DNA of 64,000 bases from Pseudomonas sp. A-RE-19 (GTDB lineage: Bacteria; Pseudomonadota; Gammaproteobacteria; Pseudomonadales; Pseudomonadaceae): positions 62,001 to 126,000 of the forward strand of contig NZ_JAHBDQ010000066.1 of assembly GCF_019956555.1 (NCBI RefSeq). The letters run 5' to 3'. How positions within the stretch are numbered: position 1 is the first letter of the stretch; each line of letters opens with the position of its first letter. Below, in pieces: positions 33,756-45,780 of the stretch. A model generated the notes under the pieces. It ran no database searches. It saw only the letters and a program-made list of their open reading frames with translations, and had not been told where the DNA came from. Position numbers and translations under genes: made by a program.

Positions 33756-37282
<3,527 letters not shown>

Positions 37283-37341
37283 TCCGGTGTAGGTTCCCAA
37301 AATAGTTGATCATTTTCACAAATAGATGATCGACGGACTCA

Positions 37342-37382
37342 ACACAAAAAAGGCCAATTCTTTGAATTGGCCTTTTTTGTGT
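37342..37382. terminator. Terminator after gyrB
   Basis: AAGGCCAATTC/GAATTGGCCTT with a three-base loop, extended by A and T runs to a 19-base-pair near-perfect stem. It is bidirectional in form and closes the dnaA-gyrB operon. Confidence 0.9.
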
Positions 37383-37508
37383 GCGCTCGAAAATTCGGTA
37401 TCTGCCCTTCTGCCAGGCAGAGTGCTGGTGCCCGCCCGAGGAAGGCGCCTACATCAGGGGCGTTACATGAAGTAATTGTGCCATCGGGCTTACCCAGAAC
37501 GCTCAAGA

Positions 37509-37694
37509 ATGACGGATAAGGATCTTAAACTTCAAATAGCCGACGCACCTGCACGGAATCGGCGTTTGCGCTTTGTTCCTAACGGCCTCTCCACCGAAAT
37601 GCTCCCAGTAGTCGGTGGTCGGAAGAACCAGCGCGAACTTCTCACCGCACACACGTTTGCCCAGTTATTGGAGGCATTGAGACAGTCAGCCTGA
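37509..37694 (+). CDS. Small ORF, hypothetical
   Basis: A 61-codon frame from an ATG (MTDKDLKLQIADAP...) ending in the helix-like FAQLLEALRQSA. There is no clear ribosome-binding site and I do not recognise it. It lies alone in the 429-base gap between gyrB and the panB paralog, which otherwise holds only the gyrB terminator. It reads towards the convergent panB paralog. It may be a gene fragment or chance. Confidence 0.3.
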   Translation: MTDKDLKLQIADAPARNRRLRFVPNGLSTEMLPVVGGRKNQRELLTAHTFAQLLEALRQSA

Positions 37695-37711
37695 GTTAAG
37701 CAGTATTAATG

Positions 37712-38536
37712 TCAGCGTTTCACTCCAAAGCAGTGCGAGAGTTCAGGAAAGCAGCCATTGCGGACATCAGATGCGTACTGGCCCACTGCATCGCGGATAA
37801 CAGCATGGACATCGGCATAACGTTTAGCGAAACGCGGTACGAACTCACCACCAAGACCCAGGATATCTTCGAGCACCAGCACTTGGCCATCGCACGCGGG
37901 CGAGGCCCCGATTCCGATGGTTGGCACGCGCAGTACCTCGGTCAACTCTCGGGCCAGCGGCTCTGCTACCCCCTCCAGCACGATGCAAAAGGCACCTGCT
38001 GATTCCATCGCCATGGCTGCCTCACGGATAGAGTCTGCCGATTGTTCGTCCATACCTTGGGCTTTGAAGCCACCCATGGTGTTGACGAACTGAGGCATCA
38101 ACCCAATATGCGCCATCACTGGAATGCCCCGCTCCACCAGAAACTGCACAGTGGGCGCCATGACCGCACTGCCTTCCAACTTTACTGCTGCGATATTGGC
38201 CTCCATCATCAACCGCGCTGCGCTGCGGAATGCCTGAGCCGGTGATTCCTGGTAGGAGGCGAACGGCAGATCAGCTACCACGCACGCGCGGTGTGTTGCA
38301 CGCACTACCGCGCGACTATGTTGTATCGTCTGATCCAATGTGAAATCCAGCGTGTTGGGCTGCCCGTAGGCAACCATCGCGGTCGAATCCCCCATCAGGA
38401 TAACGTCGGCAAATTCGTCAACGATCTCAGCGAGCGATCGATTGTGTGCGGTCAACGACACGATCTTGCGTTTGCCCTTGCAAGCCCTGATGTCGGGCAC
38501 GGTTAGACGGCGGGTTTCACTGACTGCGGTACTCAT
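37712..38536 (-). CDS. Ketopantoate hydroxymethyltransferase paralog (PanB family)
   Basis: A 274-residue enzyme of the PanB family, which transfers a hydroxymethyl group from 5,10-methylene-tetrahydrofolate to the alpha carbon of a 2-oxo acid. The metal ligands and catalytic residues are all recognisable. They include the Asp of LMGDST, the Asp of [10 protein letters not shown], the Lys/Glu of AVKLEGSA, the His of MAHIGLMPQ, the Glu of IVLEGVA, and [17 protein letters not shown] replaces the usual TAYD near residue 30 and the C-terminal tail differs, so its substrate may differ. It is the last gene of the prolyl-carrier operon, 42 bases after the hydrolase. Housekeeping panB normally sits elsewhere with panC in Pseudomonas. 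A role in a specialised product is inferred. Confidence 0.88.
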
Positions 38537-38578: not shown

Positions 38579-39376
38579 TTAAATCGACGCAGACGCCAAT
38601 TCGGCTTTGGGTGATGCGCCCGTCATCCGGTCAAAGAATTCGACTATAAGATCAAGTGCGTGGTCGGTCTGATCAAGATGCGGCGAGTGTCCGCAATCGA
38701 TCAGGCAATGTTGGGTGACAACTGCGGGTATCTTCCGTTGAATCGCGCTCAACTGCGCCAGCGTTCCGTACTCGTCCCGATCTCCCTGCAACAACAAGAC
38801 AGGACAACTGATATCGGCCAGGCACTGCTCAATATTCCAGTCTAGAAAATGATCGGATGACCAGACACTACTCCACCCCTCGAATACTGCTTTGGGATCG
38901 GGATGAAACAGAGCGAGTTGTCGTTCCAGGTTTCCGGTCAGGAACGAATTCCGCGCGGCGTCGATTCCGCTCAATGTGATGGATTCGACGAAAACATGTG
39001 GAGCAAACAGCACCAGCCCCGCAACAGGGAATTTGCTCGCGTGGAGCAGCGCGATGGACGCGCCGTCGCTATGACCAACCAGCACTGGATTGCGAAGCTC
39101 CAGTTTTTCCAGCAGTTCAGGCAATACCTGCTGCGCCTCCACGTGCATATAGTCAGAACGACGTGGCAGATCCGCTCGAGACGAGTGACCGTAACCATAG
39201 CGGCTATAAGTGAGCACTCGGCGTCCGGTCATTGCTGCCAGTCGATACGGGAAACGCCGCCACATCGCAATGCAACCGAGCCCCTCATGCAGCAGTACAA
39301 GTGGAGAAAGATCCGACGCTCCATCGATCAGCAAATAATCAATTTCTCCGCCATTCAGCGAGATCGTCGCCATCAT
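38579..39376 (-). CDS. Alpha/beta hydrolase, possible thioesterase of the cluster
   Basis: A 265-residue alpha/beta-fold hydrolase. The nucleophile elbow is GHSDGAS (Ser103), the acid is in GDRDEYG and the base His in CGHSPHLDQ. The oxyanion-side HEGLGC stretch lies near residue 30. It has no signal peptide. The start overlaps the MFS gene's stop by four bases. In this context it could release the product from the carrier protein or hydrolyse an intermediate; the fold alone does not say which. Confidence 0.85.
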   Translation of the reverse strand: MMATISLNGGEIDYLLIDGASDLSPLVLLHEGLGCIAMWRRFPYRLAAMTGRRVLTYSRYGYGHSSRADLPRRSDYMHVEAQQVLPELLEKLELRNPVLVGHSDGASIALLHASKFPVAGLVLFAPHVFVESITLSGIDAARNSFLTGNLERQLALFHPDPKAVFEGWSSVWSSDHFLDWNIEQCLADISCPVLLLQGDRDEYGTLAQLSAIQRKIPAVVTQHCLIDCGHSPHLDQTDHALDLIVEFFDRMTGASPKAELASASI

Positions 39377-40581
39377 TCACCCCCTACTGCGATAGACAAA
39401 CCGGGTTCCGGTACCGGGCCAAGCCCCAAAATCGCACGACTGCTGAAAATCACCAATATCGTCACCAGTCCACCAAACAGGCCTATGGTTGAAGACATGT
39501 CCCATACGGACAAAAGCAAACCCACCCCCACCACGGGCACAATCAACCCCAAATATGCCGCGACGAAAAAGCCCGAACTGACTTCCGCAATACGATTGGC
39601 AGGAGACAACATCGTCACCAGTCCCAGACCTCCGCGCAGCACCATGCCCGCCCCCATCCCTCCCAGCACCGCTCCCCCCAGGAACAAGGACAAGGATGCA
39701 AAATGAAAGGCCAGCCAGACACAGGCCAAAGCCAGGGGCAGTAGCCAGACACCCACGGGAACGACTCGACGGGCCGACAATCGCAATACCAACAACTGGC
39801 CAATGGCAGCACTGCAAAAAGTCAAAAATACAATGCCTCCGCTCAACAGAAGGCCACTGTGATGCAATCCAACAGCGAGGAAACGACCTGCCAGTGCTGC
39901 GAACAAGCCAAGAAAGCTAAAGCCGCACAGCACCGACATTGCCACGGCCATAAAGGCTTGCCGCATCTCACTCGGTATCCTCAATCGCTGCAATCGTAAC
40001 GGTGGGCGAGAACCTCCATGCATCACTGTTTCGGGTAGCCATGGCAACAGCACACTTGGCAACAGCATGAACAGCAGTGCTATATAACTGGCATGGAGCG
40101 GATGCGCCGCATTCTCTGCCACCCAGCCAGACAGTAACGCTCCAAGCCCTAGACCACTCATGTTGCTCAAGCTGGAGATCAGAGCCGCGAGTGACCGATT
40201 ACATAGCAACTCGGTCAGATAGGCAGTCGTGGCACCCACCATCAACCCTACTGCCATCCCGGACAATATTCGCCCAACGAACAAACCGGCTAACGTGGGC
40301 CAGAGTAAAAAGCTCAACAGACTTGCAAATGTCAGCCCGATCCCGAGCCCCAGCACTACTCGTCGGCCCAACAAATCAGACAATCGACCAAACACCATTA
40401 GTTTGAACAGGATGGCCAGTGCGTAGGACGCGAATACCAACGTCACTACAAACGGAGACAAGCCTAATTGTGTGGCATAGAGTGGATACAATGGCGTCGG
40501 TAACGTCCCCACCATCATCACCACCAACAACAGATAAGTGCTGAGCCAGGCGGCGCGTCTGAATTGGGCTGGAATTCGCAT
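39373..40581 (-). CDS. MFS transporter, probable exporter
   Basis: A 402-residue major facilitator protein with about 12 hydrophobic segments. The MFS motif A appears between TM2 and TM3 as FGRLSDLLGRRVVLGLG. A second loop, AGRFLAVGLHH, follows the central break. It is sandwiched between a dehydrogenase and a hydrolase gene with spacing of six bases and an overlap of four. Export of the cluster product, or self-protection, is the natural inference. Confidence 0.88.
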   Translation of the reverse strand: MRIPAQFRRAAWLSTYLLLVVMMVGTLPTPLYPLYATQLGLSPFVVTLVFASYALAILFKLMVFGRLSDLLGRRVVLGLGIGLTFASLLSFLLWPTLAGLFVGRILSGMAVGLMVGATTAYLTELLCNRSLAALISSLSNMSGLGLGALLSGWVAENAAHPLHASYIALLFMLLPSVLLPWLPETVMHGGSRPPLRLQRLRIPSEMRQAFMAVAMSVLCGFSFLGLFAALAGRFLAVGLHHSGLLLSGGIVFLTFCSAAIGQLLVLRLSARRVVPVGVWLLPLALACVWLAFHFASLSLFLGGAVLGGMGAGMVLRGGLGLVTMLSPANRIAEVSSGFFVAAYLGLIVPVVGVGLLLSVWDMSSTIGLFGGLVTILVIFSSRAILGLGPVPEPGLSIAVGGE

Positions 40582-40587
40582 GAGCCA

Positions 40588-41769
40588 TTACCAGTTAATC
40601 TGTCGTGCATCGAACAGATTAACCCCCAGTTGGGCCTTGCCTAAGTATTCCAGACAGTCCATTGGCTTGGCCGGCATAACACTGCAAAAGAACGATTCGC
40701 GCAGCAGTCGTTCCAGCGGTCGGCTACGATTCAATGTGCTCGCACCACAAAGCTTCACCGCCGCCATTGCCATCTTCGGCGCAAGTTCACCGATGAAGTA
40801 CTTGGCGGCATGCACAGCGGCATTTGCATCTATCGTTCCGCGCCGTTGTTCGATGAGTGTGCCAGCATGATTCAGCAACGCTCTCCCCGCTTGTAATTCA
40901 GCCGACAGCCTGCCTACTTCCTGATGGATCGCGCTGGATTCTCGTTGGGAAGGCGTGGTGCGCACGGCCTCGGTGATGTATTGCAACAACGCAGTAGCAA
41001 TCCCAAGATAAACACCGGTATAGCCGGAAATCATCCAATGGGGCTCACGTACCAGCTTGAATAAAGACATCCCTTCGACTGCAAGAAACAAACGCTGGCG
41101 GGTCAAAAGCACATTTTCAAAAGTCATGCTGGCGGTCTGGGTACCATTCATTGCAAACCCGTCCCAAACCTGGCCGCAATGCACGCCTTCGTCATTGCGA
41201 CCGACCACGAAGTGGCTGATTTCGCTGTCGCTGTCGTTACCCTCGGGTCTTGCCGTTACTACGATGTAATCTGCAGCGCCTGCCAACGACACAAAAGACT
41301 TGTTGCCATTGAGCAGGAAGCCGCCTTCATGCGGTCGATAATGTGTCTGGATACCTCGCAACCGCGCACCACTGCCCAGCTCGGATGTCGCAGATGCAAA
41401 CATCTTGTTGTGCGATATCACCTCATCAAATACCCAGGAGCGAAAGGCATCCGCAGCCGCTGACAGCGATTTCCCCGCCGACTCACACAACGAGCCAAGC
41501 GCCACATTGTGCATATTGAATCCCAGCGCAGTTGCCGCGTCATACTGGGCAAGTCGTGCCAGAACCTGGCTATATTCCAGATAACTCAGACCCGCCCCCC
41601 CAGCATCGCGAGGGATCAACAACCCCAACAGACCAGATTCCTTTATCAGTCGATAGCTCTCGCTACTATCCGATTGTTGGTTATCCACCAACGGAGCCAA
41701 GTCGACCAGCTGTGTTCCGATGCGGTCTACCAACGAGAGAATTTCATCGATTTGGTGTGGCAAAGCCAT
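40588..41769 (-). CDS. Acyl-CoA dehydrogenase-like flavoprotein 1
   Basis: A 393-residue member of the acyl-CoA dehydrogenase superfamily. The N-terminal helical domain has GLLGLLIPRDAGGAGLSYLE. The middle beta domain has ATSELGSGARLRG, then LLNGNKSFVSLAGAADYIVV. The C-terminal four-helix domain ends at residues MDCLEYLGKAQLGVNLFDARQ. I see no clear equivalent of the WERA catalytic-Glu stretch found in its neighbour, so it may be a divergent desaturase, a monooxygenase-like member or a non-catalytic partner. It is the fourth gene of the operon. Confidence 0.85.
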   Translation of the reverse strand: MALPHQIDEILSLVDRIGTQLVDLAPLVDNQQSDSSESYRLIKESGLLGLLIPRDAGGAGLSYLEYSQVLARLAQYDAATALGFNMHNVALGSLCESAGKSLSAAADAFRSWVFDEVISHNKMFASATSELGSGARLRGIQTHYRPHEGGFLLNGNKSFVSLAGAADYIVVTARPEGNDSDSEISHFVVGRNDEGVHCGQVWDGFAMNGTQTASMTFENVLLTRQRLFLAVEGMSLFKLVREPHWMISGYTGVYLGIATALLQYITEAVRTTPSQRESSAIHQEVGRLSAELQAGRALLNHAGTLIEQRRGTIDANAAVHAAKYFIGELAPKMAMAAVKLCGASTLNRSRPLERLLRESFFCSVMPAKPMDCLEYLGKAQLGVNLFDARQINW

Positions 41770-41808: not shown

Positions 41809-42939
41809 TCAGTTCTCGACTGGCAAACCAGCCTGGCGCGCCACGCTGATACGTAGCAGATCGTTCGCCCCCGCATAGGTCATTGAAGCCAATGGACTGA
41901 TGAGATCGATCGCCCGACCGGAATCTGCGATGTAAGAACGCACACCACCTAACTGGGCTGCCAACTGCGACAGCCGCGTAAAGTCTTCAGAAACCGATAT
42001 CTTCACCATCGCAGCCTCACCACTCAATTGACGGATAGTCACTCCGGCATCGATGCGCCGCGCAATGCCATATAGCAATTTTCGCGAACGATAAAGGGCC
42101 ATGCTCATGTCGGCCACATGCCCGGCCACTAGGTGACTGGAACCCATTGATCTTCCGAAATGACTTCGATCCCGGCTCCACTCCACCGTCTGAACCAGCA
42201 TGCTGCGCATGGGGCCTAGCGCATACCCCATGAGGAGAGCTCGCTCCCAGGTAGTAGTCGCGGTCAATACAGAGAAACCTGCACCCTCGCCCCCCAACAG
42301 GCTGTGCTCCTCCAACCGCACACCGTCAAAGGTCAACACGCCCATCGGTACACCGGGCAATGCGGCCTTGTCCAGCGGCTCACTACGCAGTACGCCCGCA
42401 TCGGACAGGTCAACTAGTGCGACTGATAAATCGAATGGTGATCGCCCCTTACCGGTACGAGCGAACACCAAGGCGTGATCTGCTACCGGGGCAGCGGTAA
42501 TGAAGCGCTTCTCGCCCGTCAACCGATAACTACCGTCCGCCTGACGTTCAGCCACGGTTTCCATCGACATCGGATCACTACCGCCATGCGCTTCAGTCAG
42601 CGCGTGACACAACAGCGTCTCCCCATCTTCCAGGCCTGCCAGTTGTTTCCGCTGCTCGGTATTCAGCCAAGTCTGCATGGGCAATTGCATACCGAACAAC
42701 TGTGAAGCAAGTGCATAGCAAAGGGCAGGACTCACGCCGCTCATGCCCAATCCTTCCACCATGGCGAGCTTGTTTGTCACCGTGCTATTGGAAGAACGCA
42801 GCAGCCCTGTAGCCGCTGCCAACAACCATTGCTCGCGGAAGGTTTTTCCTTCCAACTCAGGCAGCAAAGCCTCCCCTTGGATGCAGCCCTCCTGCACCGT
42901 TTGTTCAACGATCTTGTCTTCGTCTCCGAACAGCATCAC
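41809..42939 (-). CDS. Acyl-CoA dehydrogenase-like flavoprotein 2, PltE/PigA-like
   Basis: A 376-residue flavoprotein that most resembles the prolyl-carrier-protein dehydrogenases of pyrrole biosynthesis. Matching stretches are ALTEAHGGSDP, YRLTGEKRFITAAPVADHA, SEPLDKAALPGVPMGVLTF and TTWERALLMGYALG, where the Glu of WERA corresponds to the proposed catalytic base of PltE/RedW. FGRSMGSSHLVAGHVADM follows. Those enzymes oxidise prolyl thioesters to pyrroline or pyrrole thioesters with FAD. It lies 24 bases after the carrier protein gene. The N-terminal helical domain looks somewhat short or divergent. Confidence 0.87.
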   Translation of the reverse strand: MMLFGDEDKIVEQTVQEGCIQGEALLPELEGKTFREQWLLAAATGLLRSSNSTVTNKLAMVEGLGMSGVSPALCYALASQLFGMQLPMQTWLNTEQRKQLAGLEDGETLLCHALTEAHGGSDPMSMETVAERQADGSYRLTGEKRFITAAPVADHALVFARTGKGRSPFDLSVALVDLSDAGVLRSEPLDKAALPGVPMGVLTFDGVRLEEHSLLGGEGAGFSVLTATTTWERALLMGYALGPMRSMLVQTVEWSRDRSHFGRSMGSSHLVAGHVADMSMALYRSRKLLYGIARRIDAGVTIRQLSGEAAMVKISVSEDFTRLSQLAAQLGGVRSYIADSGRAIDLISPLASMTYAGANDLLRISVARQAGLPVEN

Positions 42940-42963: not shown

Positions 42964-43224
42964 TCAAGCGAGCTCGACCAGGCTGGCTTCAATTACGGCC
43001 CATAGCGCGGCAGGCGTGCGAAATGAAGCTGCGACGACTTTGTTTTCAGGGAAAGCTATCTCGAACTTTTTCTCAACGTCGACGACAATGGATATGATCG
43101 TTAGAGAGTCCAACCAACCTTCCTCCAGTAACGCCGTGTCCGGTACCACAGTAAGGTCTGCACTTTGGTATTGCGTTAGCAGATTTGACTGAATCAGCGA
43201 GCACAGCGCTTCAATGTTCTTCAT
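42964..43224 (-). CDS. Acyl/peptidyl carrier protein
   Basis: An 86-residue four-helix carrier protein. The phosphopantetheine attachment Ser is Ser40 in EEGWLDSLTIISIVVDVEK, where the usual DSL motif is present. Acidic helix II and the length agree with stand-alone carriers such as PltL. The start overlaps the adenylation enzyme's stop by 14 bases, which ties the two in translation. Expected to be loaded by the adjacent adenylation enzyme after activation by a phosphopantetheinyl transferase encoded elsewhere. Confidence 0.92.
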   Translation of the reverse strand: MKNIEALCSLIQSNLLTQYQSADLTVVPDTALLEEGWLDSLTIISIVVDVEKKFEIAFPENKVVAASFRTPAALWAVIEASLVELA

Positions 43225-44752
43225 TACTTATCTCTTCCATGTTTACACTCAACATGCTCAAAGCACGTCGATCTATTTTGCCGTTGGCAGTAGCTGGCAG
43301 CTTTCGCGCCATACGAACTCCATCCGGTCGCATCCTCTTCGGCAATGCTTCGCTCAAACCGCGAACAATGTCATCGCGACCTGCGCCAGCACTCACCACA
43401 TGTACCCAGATCTCGCAATCCGGCTCTGTGCCTTGGCGAGCCACAACGGCAGCAGTTTCAACACCCGGCAATGCCAATACCGCACTTTCTATGTCCAGAA
43501 GATCAATGCGGTGGCCGCGACGCTTCACCTGATGGTCACGTCGACCTTGCAGATGAAAGCGACCATCCGCCGCCTGATACCCGATATCCCCCGTGCCATA
43601 GGCCAACCTTTCCACTCCATCGCGGAAATACACTGCACGGCGGGCATCGCGACATACGCCATCAACCAAATAACCAGCGAACACCGTCGGCCCTGCAACG
43701 AAAATCTCACCCTCCGACGCTGCACGACCGTCGTCACCGATGATTTCGACTTCCACTCCATCAATCGCCCAACCGATCGACGGCAAAACCGTCTCGATAC
43801 TCGGCAGACTCACCTGTTCTGCGGTGCACACATTGGTTTCCGTAGGCCCATACAGGTTGTAGAACGGCAAGTCGGGGAATGCAGTCAGATAGCGCTTAAG
43901 CAGTTGTGGCGGGAAAGGTTCACCTGCGTACAACGCAGCGCGTAGTGCAGACGGCCTCGATTGCTCAATCCCGCCCTGCTGTAGCAGCATCTGATACAAG
44001 GTGGGTACTGCGTAGAACACTGAGATACTCTGCTCACCCAGCCAACGCGTCACATCGCGAGGAAAAGTCTTAAGATAGTCTGGCAACAGACAAAGGCAGG
44101 CTCCAGCCAGTGCAGTCGAGAATAGATCGAAGGTCGTCAGATCGAATGTGAGTGCCGCTTGTGATCCAACACGGTCCTCACAGTCCAGAGCAACTGCGCG
44201 TGCCGCCCAGGCACAAAAATGCAGGACGTTGGCATGGGACAGGCATACACCCTTGGGCGCGCCGGTACTGCCTGATGTAAACAAAACATAGCCACCCTCG
44301 CACCCAGCATGTCGAAGTGGTTGTCCTCGCAAGGGGAACAGCCATAGCCCGCCCACTGTGCGAGCATCGCCAGACTGACCATGAATGGAAACCACCTTGG
44401 ATGCTGCTGCTTGGCTTGCAGGGGTCGCCAATAAAAAATCCAGGTCGGCGTTGGCCAACATCCGTGCGCCCCGTTCCGCGGGGTCCTTGACATCCATCGG
44501 AGCGACTAATGCCCCCAGCCTTAATGCGGCATAAATGGCCACAACAGCGGCTGCGCTCTTCGCAATATAGATGCCTATTCGATCACCAGCATGCACCCCT
44601 TCTGCACGCATCAACTCGCATAATTTATTAACCGCTTCGTTCAGTTGTTGATAGCTGAATGACGCATCTTCCGCTTGTAGCGCGGGCCTCTGTGGATAGC
44701 GCTGTGCAGCTTCAACCAGCGTCTGATCAAGCCGAATACAATCATTGAACAA
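43211..44752 (-). CDS. Stand-alone amino-acid adenylation enzyme, predicted L-proline-specific
   Basis: A 513-residue NRPS-type adenylation domain that would activate an amino acid with ATP and transfer it to the carrier protein. Core motifs are A3 LFTSGSTGAPKGV, A4 LTFDLTTFDLF, A5 YNLYGPTETNVC, A7 YGTGDIGY, A8 GRRDHQVKRRGHRIDLLDIE and A10 LPATANGKIDRRAL with the catalytic Lys. Aligning by eye to GrsA, the specificity residues 235, 236, 239, 278, 299, 301, 322 and 330 are D, L, F, Y, L, A, L and V. This differs at one place from the DLLYLALV that I recall for PltF/RedM-type proline enzymes. The start is a TTG with AGAGG five bases upstream. It is the first gene of the seven-gene operon, divergent from the LysR gene. 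Confidence 0.9.
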   Translation of the reverse strand: MFNDCIRLDQTLVEAAQRYPQRPALQAEDASFSYQQLNEAVNKLCELMRAEGVHAGDRIGIYIAKSAAAVVAIYAALRLGALVAPMDVKDPAERGARMLANADLDFLLATPASQAAASKVVSIHGQSGDARTVGGLWLFPLRGQPLRHAGCEGGYVLFTSGSTGAPKGVCLSHANVLHFCAWAARAVALDCEDRVGSQAALTFDLTTFDLFSTALAGACLCLLPDYLKTFPRDVTRWLGEQSISVFYAVPTLYQMLLQQGGIEQSRPSALRAALYAGEPFPPQLLKRYLTAFPDLPFYNLYGPTETNVCTAEQVSLPSIETVLPSIGWAIDGVEVEIIGDDGRAASEGEIFVAGPTVFAGYLVDGVCRDARRAVYFRDGVERLAYGTGDIGYQAADGRFHLQGRRDHQVKRRGHRIDLLDIESAVLALPGVETAAVVARQGTEPDCEIWVHVVSAGAGRDDIVRGLSEALPKRMRPDGVRMARKLPATANGKIDRRALSMLSVNMEEISNEEH

Positions 44753-44892: not shown

Positions 44893-45780
44893 ATGGATCT
44901 GAAGAACTTGCGCTATTTCGTGGAAGTGACAGAGCATGGCAGCTTCTCGAAGGCATCCCACAACATTCACGTCACCCAATCGGCGCTTAGCAAAGCCGTT
45001 CAATTGCTCGAAGAAGAACTGGGTACGACGCTATTGGTTCGCAGCCGTCCAGGCGTGCCATCACGCTTGACCCCGTCGGGCGAAGTGGTATTCCGCCACG
45101 CCAAGGGATTGCTGAGCCGCAGCAAGCAAATGCTGACCGACGTGAACTTGCTCAATAGCCTCGTCACCGGCGTCCTTCGGCTGGGGTTACCTCCTTTAGG
45201 CAGTACCGATCATATAGCGGTCGTGTTGACCGAGTTTCAGCGACGCTTTCCCCAAGTGGAACTCCAATTGCGTGAACAAGGAGGACAAGCCCTGGAGGAG
45301 GCCGTTCGCAAGGGCGAGATAGAACTGGCTATCAGTCTGCGACCAGAGGGAGACGACCTGGCCTGGCTTCCGATTTGTGAGGAGCCACTCGTTGTCGTCC
45401 TGCCGCCTCGCCACCCACTCGCCAACCACCATCGACTGACGCTGCCGGATTTAGCGCATCACCCATGGGTGCAGCTACAGGGTGCCTCTATCCTCAATCA
45501 CCGCATCAAGCTCTGTTGCCCTGCTCTGGACGTCAGTCGCCTACAGGCGGCCAAAAGCGACAACCTGGCCTTTTGCTTGTCATTGGTGGCTGCGAACGCA
45601 GGCCTGCTGGTATTGCCCAGGCTATTGGCTCAACACCATATCCCACCCGGTGTGGAAATCGTCCCGCTCGAATGCGCCGAACTACAGTGGCAACTCGTCG
45701 TCATCTGGCGCAAGAGCTCACAGCTGTCGGTAGCGGCGCAGCAATGGCTTGAACTGTTGGCAACCGACGCTGGCCAATAA
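44893..45780 (+). CDS. LysR-family transcriptional regulator
   Basis: A 295-residue LysR regulator. The N-terminal winged helix-turn-helix is LRYFVEVTEHGSFSKASHNI plus VTQSALSKAVQLLEEELG. The C-terminal periplasmic-binding-like effector domain runs from about residue 90 (GVLRLGLPPLGSTD). It reads away from the prolyl-carrier operon, so it most likely controls that operon in response to an intermediate or inducer. The amidase gene lies 155 bases downstream. Confidence 0.92.
   Translation: MDLKNLRYFVEVTEHGSFSKASHNIHVTQSALSKAVQLLEEELGTTLLVRSRPGVPSRLTPSGEVVFRHAKGLLSRSKQMLTDVNLLNSLVTGVLRLGLPPLGSTDHIAVVLTEFQRRFPQVELQLREQGGQALEEAVRKGEIELAISLRPEGDDLAWLPICEEPLVVVLPPRHPLANHHRLTLPDLAHHPWVQLQGASILNHRIKLCCPALDVSRLQAAKSDNLAFCLSLVAANAGLLVLPRLLAQHHIPPGVEIVPLECAELQWQLVVIWRKSSQLSVAAQQWLELLATDAGQ

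Follow-up and report, generated by a model that had tools for sequence, protein, structure and literature searches.

We analysed a window of 64,000 nucleotides from the genome of Pseudomonas sp. A-RE-19 (contig NZ_JAHBDQ010000066.1, positions 62,001 to 126,000). The window contains a seven-gene operon on the minus strand that is led by the gene of an adenylation enzyme, followed by genes for a carrier protein, two flavoproteins (ACAD1 and ACAD2), an MFS transporter, an alpha/beta hydrolase and a second ketopantoate hydroxymethyltransferase (PanB). A gene for a LysR-family regulator is encoded divergently. In positions of the window, the features are:

44893..45780, plus strand: divergent LysR-family regulator, adjoining the operon in four Pseudomonas loci (sequence, Pfam)
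43211..44752, minus strand: stand-alone adenylation enzyme of the ChmJ/PltF type, predicted to use L-proline, code DLFYLALVCK (sequence, Pfam, alignments, tree, structure search)
43826..44143, minus strand: pocket stretch of this enzyme, residues 235-331 in GrsA numbering, with the Phe239 codon at 44129-44131 (alignment)
42964..43224, minus strand: stand-alone carrier protein, 86 aa, with an Asp-Ser-Leu attachment site (PF00550)
41809..42939, minus strand: ACAD1, flavoprotein of the prolyl-carrier dehydrogenase type (ChmH/RedW type), catalytic Glu232 present (NCBIfam, PDB matches, alignment)
40588..41769, minus strand: ACAD2, ACAD-fold flavoprotein with Met246 in the catalytic Glu column, probable prolyl N-oxygenase of the ChmG type (PDB matches, alignment)
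39373..40581, minus strand: MFS transporter, probable exporter (PF07690)
38579..39376, minus strand: alpha/beta hydrolase with a Gly-His-Ser-Asp-Gly nucleophile motif, probable release thioesterase of the ChmF type (Pfam)
37712..38536, minus strand: second panB gene, Tyr-to-His exchange in the LTA[Y/H] motif (NCBIfam, alignment)

Intergenic distances in the operon lie between -14 and 42 bases, and there are two overlaps, including the 14 bases shared by the carrier protein and adenylation genes. A probable role of the LysR protein is control of the operon. All eight genes, LysR included, are found in the same order in 4/4 further Pseudomonas loci (L003-L006) at 82.6-96.6% identity (tblastn). 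The ACAD2 match in L005 (L005:12985-14162) is split into two frames near the C-terminus (residues 1-363 and 361-393), and therefore this copy may be broken or mis-sequenced. Beyond the LysR gene, amidase, MFS and OprD genes (assigned by eye) are common to the window, L003 and L004; L005 and L006 showed none of them. At the other end of the operon, a distance of 429 bases with a terminator-like palindrome separates panB from the end of gyrB (by eye) in the window (37282-37712), but gyrB was not found in L003-L006, whose sequence extends about 4.5 kb past panB. Hence, the position of the cassette varies between strains. The cassette is rare. At an identity of at least 85% the adenylation gene occurs in three of 398 sampled genomes of the genus, the own genome included; in the class sample 3/369 genomes pass E 1e-62 for the adenylation enzyme, namely the own genome and two with enzymes at 34-35% identity and other codes. 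In the phylum sample, ACAD2 has a match at E 1e-40 in a single genome out of 398, its own. Related adenylation enzymes encoded next to a Glu-bearing ACAD were also seen in L023 and L024 of the same class, with the codes DLFFMGVSCK and DIFFLGVGCK.

The sequence-only reading had placed an adenylation enzyme at 43211-44752, and this open reading frame indeed encodes a 513-residue AMP-binding protein (PF00501, 236.7 bits). It starts with TTG, with AGAGG just upstream, and GTG replaces TTG in L005 and L006. PF00501 and PF13193 are its only Pfam domains, and the 86-residue PF00550 carrier protein is encoded in the adjoining gene. A single adenylation protein with a free-standing carrier protein is the arrangement typical of stand-alone L-proline adenylation enzymes. 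PltF is the top match of all PDB chains that have a single adenylation domain (258.7 bits versus 198.9 for the next), while chains with two matched stretches outscore it in sum. A predicted model of the enzyme (pLDDT 79.5) finds PltF first by Foldseek E-value and by VIA-align 2 Z (42.1); however, by TM-score other adenylation domains fit the model better (0.67 for PltF versus 0.82 for GrsA), and in Z numerous domains come within 1-2 units of PltF. Thus, PltF does not stand out by fold alone. In a 31-row tree the window enzyme joins L026, L028, L029, L017 and L018, but the support of this fork is 85/66, and a grouping with PltF-type enzymes apart from NRPS adenylation domains is tentative.

The specificity pocket was placed through the GrsA motifs. 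Residues D204, L205, F208, Y247, L274, A276, L300, V308, C309 and K492 correspond to GrsA positions 235, 236, 239, 278, 299, 301, 322, 330, 331 and 517, giving D-L-F-Y-L-A-L-V-C-K, and alignment to PltF and PigI bears out the earlier eight-residue reading D-L-F-Y-L-A-L-V. The pocket stretch aligns without gaps to PltF (PDB 6o6e) and with a single inserted residue, a few residues ahead of position 322, to PigI (7thn). In these alignments PigI reads DLFYIAWVC and PltF DLLYLALVC, and therefore the DLLYLALV given for PltF in the sequence-only reading is correct. PltF, which is 32-34% identical to the window enzyme over structural alignments, has Leu instead of Phe at 239 as the sole code difference and matches it at all other positions of 235-331. 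Its system, PltF-PltL-PltE of pyoluteorin synthesis, likewise combines a stand-alone proline adenylation enzyme, a carrier protein and a dehydrogenase; plt is not known to include a Met-bearing N-oxygenase-like partner or a comparable release hydrolase. The proline enzyme PigI of prodigiosin synthesis shares Phe239 with the window enzyme, but has Ile299 and Trp322 where the latter has Leu. The agreement with a proline code exceeds chance: the code DLFYLALVCK is identical in the 4/4 orthologous Pseudomonas loci, relatives in L017 and L018 have DLLYLALVCK, and neither proline code occurs in the 18 other adenylation stretches (one of them partial) of a 27-row comparison. A text search of the literature for both code strings found no paper. 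Stand-alone L-proline enzymes have the published consensus L(L/F)YLALVC (PMC3874040), and the window pocket fits it exactly between the invariant Asp and Lys (D+LFYLALVC+K), which supports the earlier assignment to proline.

The sequence-only reading had also suggested that Phe239 could alter ring size or substitution preference, that is, retune the pocket toward a ring variant or modified proline such as pipecolate, azetidine carboxylate or hydroxyproline. One of eight residues does differ from PltF, and remodelled pockets are known in this lineage, the Streptomyces enzyme of L026 reading DLFIAGLACK. However, that pocket still has Phe239, and so do the published L-proline consensus, PigI, which was crystallised with a proline inhibitor, and the stand-alone lincosamide enzyme CcbC, whose code VFYCALVC differs from that of the window enzyme by Val236 and Cys299 and which strictly prefers L-proline (PMC3874040). 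LmbC, stand-alone as well but with a pocket remodelled for 4-propylproline, has Ala at the 239 site, and its A207F exchange lowers the preference for 4-propylproline over proline, the Km for 4-propylproline rising from 0.28 to 8.6 mM; kcat/Km for proline also drops, from 0.042 to 0.006 (PMC5730197). Conversely, only a CcbC triple mutant including F205A strongly prefers 4-propylproline over proline, and CcbC V306G+F205A accepts no alkylproline (PMC5730197). The LmbC and CcbC mutants are imperfect switches. Taken together, PigI, the consensus, CcbC and these mutants speak against Phe239 as a specificity change, and we consider a retuned pocket highly improbable. Phe239 is plainly an ordinary alternative residue of the L-proline pocket, and it is probably the two flavoproteins encoded further down the operon that alter the proline once it has been loaded. 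Taken alone, the pocket reading is of small importance, as it describes a textbook L-proline enzyme in which the flagged residue is already explained.

The two flavoproteins differ in the catalytic column. ACAD1 has Glu232 there, in the column that differs between 5zw0 and 6af6 (E versus A), and its top PDB matches are the prolyl-carrier dehydrogenases 5zw0 (124.5 bits) and 4irn (124.4 bits), the latter being listed as a prolyl-ACP dehydrogenase and presumably AnaB. Against the NCBIfam models of RedW and PigA it scores 188 bits (cut-off 650) and 180.1 bits (cut-off 500), respectively. ACAD2 has Met in the Glu column in 5/5 Pseudomonas loci and in the Streptomyces locus L026. Its top PDB matches, 3m9v/4kcf, are listed as FAD-dependent oxidoreductase and are, we assume, KijD3; DnmZ and a nitrososynthase follow lower, and ordinary acyl-CoA dehydrogenases score close to 3m9v (78.4 versus 80.8 bits). 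A structure model of ACAD2 was set aside as evidence (pLDDT 47.0). In L026 the gene next after that of ACAD2 encodes a flavin reductase (PF01613), matching the need of a two-component oxygenase. A search with the PF01613 family found no flavin reductase gene in the Pseudomonas operon and one PF01613 protein encoded elsewhere in the genome. The hydrolase (265 aa) has its top NCBIfam match in the proline iminopeptidase family, under the cut-off.

A system with the same protein types has been described for chalkophomycin. There, ChmJ loads L-proline on ChmI, ChmG, which carries Met in place of the Glu and folds like KijD3, N-oxygenates the carrier-bound proline, ChmH (with Glu) finishes the N-hydroxypyrrole, and the alpha/beta hydrolase ChmF releases N-hydroxypyrrole-2-carboxylic acid (PMC10849742). 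The five protein types of the operon have similar sizes, 513/86/376/393/265 aa versus 517/92/383/395/264 aa for ChmJ/I/H/G/F (PMC11085572). Going by the published description of Chm, both systems combine a Glu-bearing ACAD with a Met-bearing ACAD-like protein, and in both the hydrolase gene adjoins the set; its product frees the acid in Chm and is predicted to do so here. Because gene arrangement and protein lengths match Chm as described, we infer the same chemistry for the operon. The adenylation enzyme would make prolyl-AMP from L-proline, the substrate suggested by its pocket, and load the neighbouring carrier protein. ACAD2 (ChmG type) would then N-oxygenate the carrier-bound proline, ACAD1 (ChmH type, with Glu) would complete the N-hydroxypyrrole, and the hydrolase (ChmF type) would free N-hydroxypyrrole-2-carboxylate. 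The MFS transporter might export the product, a guess from the presence of its gene. Unlike Chm, the operon carries MFS and panB genes, and it lacks a second adenylase of the ChmK type and any NRPS/PKS gene for using the acid. None of the seven genes encodes an assembly line, which suggests that the pathway may end with the free acid.

Alternatively, the operon could make plain pyrrole-2-carboxylate or dehydroproline, comparable to the starter units of pyoluteorin and anatoxin, with ACAD2 acting as a second dehydrogenase or as a carbon hydroxylase. An adenylation enzyme, a PCP and one Glu-bearing ACAD are a known pyrrole set, ACAD1 is equally near to 5zw0 and 4irn, and the small lead of 3m9v over ordinary ACADs in the ACAD2 matches would allow for it. 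However, ACAD2 lacks the catalytic Glu in all five Pseudomonas loci and in L026, the flavin reductase gene adjoins it in the latter, and the gene set including the hydrolase fits that described for Chm. A plain pyrrole product is thus unlikely in our view, while the N-hydroxypyrrole pathway, with loading of L-proline, oxidation by ACAD2 and ACAD1 and release by the hydrolase, is the likely function of the operon. Clusters of this kind have been reported in Pseudomonas fluorescens, within four classes from 97 organisms (PMC10849742), and hence the cassette type is not new. The operon would be a compact N-hydroxypyrrole pathway and a rare example of a recently described route.

The closest relative of the adenylation enzyme found outside Pseudomonas is encoded in a Streptomyces plasmid cassette (L026/L027 from NBC_01369 and NBC_00826; enzyme at L026:13980-15527, 51.9% identical). 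Both loci hold a nearly identical cassette and were counted as a single observation. Its hydrolase, adenylation enzyme, PCP, ACAD1 and ACAD2 are homologous to those of the window (46-54% identity), but its pocket DLFIAGLACK differs from DLFYLALVCK, with Phe239 retained and positions 278, 299, 301 and 330 changed. The lincosamide work had identified three decisive positions, 278 and 330 among them. The changes at 278 and 330 parallel the lincosamide enzymes that accept 4-alkylprolines, and therefore a larger imino acid may be loaded. In contrast to the window, the Streptomyces cassette contains flavin reductase, panD, SDR, PhyH and zinc dehydrogenase genes, and panD (PF02261), which belongs to the beta-alanine branch of the pantothenate pathway, directly follows the flavin reductase gene. 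The window LysR, MFS and PanB proteins have no match in this cassette at E 1e-5 (for panB over 29.5 kb); genes annotated as LysR and MFS lie nearby, likewise without a match to those of the window at E 1e-5. An enzyme from Streptomyces clavuligerus (L028) is only 37% identical to the window enzyme, yet has the code DLFYLALVCK. Its gene (L028:10001-11503, plasmid pCLA1) adjoins that of a Glu-bearing ACAD, and three more adenylation stretches, one of them cut by the locus end, lie nearby in a part of the record that has no annotated features.

The cassette PanB passes the curated cut-off of TIGR00222 (290.6 versus 207.55 bits) and has all of the motifs GDS, DLPF, VKLEG, HIGL and LEG, within which the catalytic residues presumably lie. 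In the LTAY motif, however, His is found in 4/4 distinct cassette PanBs, versus Tyr in 30/30 others. In this count of 34 distinct sequences the Tyr of LT[A/C/S]Y is a conserved feature, unpublished as a criterion; three PanB chains compared also have Tyr. We keep the protein as a PanB because the curated cut-off decides and none of the sources consulted calls the Tyr essential. By family membership, it would make ketopantoate. In a quick tree the cassette PanBs group as a separate clade (99% SH-aLRT), and another PanB in the own genome, which we take as the housekeeping copy, is about 40% identical to the cassette copy. Of 199 Pseudomonas genomes, 36 contain a full-length PanB with 58-62% identity to the cassette copy, the partial matches of G062 and G108 being left out of the count, and one of the 36, G011, carries such a PanB elsewhere in addition to the cassette copy. 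Apart from weak LysR matches, the other cassette proteins were not found around 25 non-cassette PanB loci, 18 of which show only about 1.5 kb on each side. In L040 (L040:6145-13782) a second PanB, different from the cassette copy, neighbours a GntR/aminotransferase-type regulator gene that combines aminotransferase and GntR domains, two ATP-grasp genes and a methylaspartate mutase E-type gene (PF06368), and this region is possibly another small-molecule cluster with a spare panB.

A pantothenate gene is thus present in both lineages, panB in Pseudomonas and panD in Streptomyces, suggesting that the product touches the pantothenate pathway. At the level of gene content, this suggests a product aimed at pantothenate synthesis, with the extra enzyme as a self-protecting copy of the target. 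PanB forms an enol using a metal, and pyrazinoic acid, a small heteroaromatic acid, binds PanD (PMC7770189). One could speculate that free N-hydroxypyrrole-2-carboxylate is itself a weapon, a small metal-binding acid that keeps competitors from making pantoate by mimicking the enolate of alpha-ketoisovalerate. The insensitive His-PanB would then protect the producer, and the Streptomyces cassette would make a related acid, with PanD for self-protection. We regard this specific proposal as rather unlikely at present. Counted against self-protection is that second PanBs are not rare, occurring in those 36 Pseudomonas genomes outside such a cassette as far as seen. A better, although still less than even, chance is given to a biosynthetic PanB that hydroxymethylates a pathway intermediate or provides ketopantoate for incorporation, in which case the pathway would end in something other than the free acid. 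Its gene is co-directional and lies 42 bases downstream of the hydrolase gene, it is kept in all of L003-L006, and the Tyr-to-His exchange could reflect a new substrate. However, the protein is above the PanB family cut-off with the motifs of the presumed catalytic residues kept, no evident ligase that would join pantoate and the acid is among the seven genes, and the Streptomyces cassette has panD and, at the threshold and span given above, no panB match.

Searches of the literature by title, covering PanD self-resistance, pyrrole-2-carboxylic acid with pantothenate, and PanB inhibitors, listed no paper that places pantothenate genes in clusters of this kind, and no title among the matches listed concerned a PanB-containing pyrrole cluster. 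The main text of the chalkophomycin paper has zero mentions of pantothenate, panB or hydroxymethyltransferase (PMC10849742). The new point of the cassette is panB, with its His/Tyr split and a panD counterpart in a diverged Streptomyces cassette that has a remodelled pocket. According to a 2020 review, inhibitors of PanB had yet to be found or designed, with the exception of substrate analogues that show some effect (PMC7770189), and if the proposed action of the acid were true it would be the first natural PanB inhibitor. Having panB and panD in two diverged cassettes makes a target testable, and this pantothenate link is the part that is worth an experiment.
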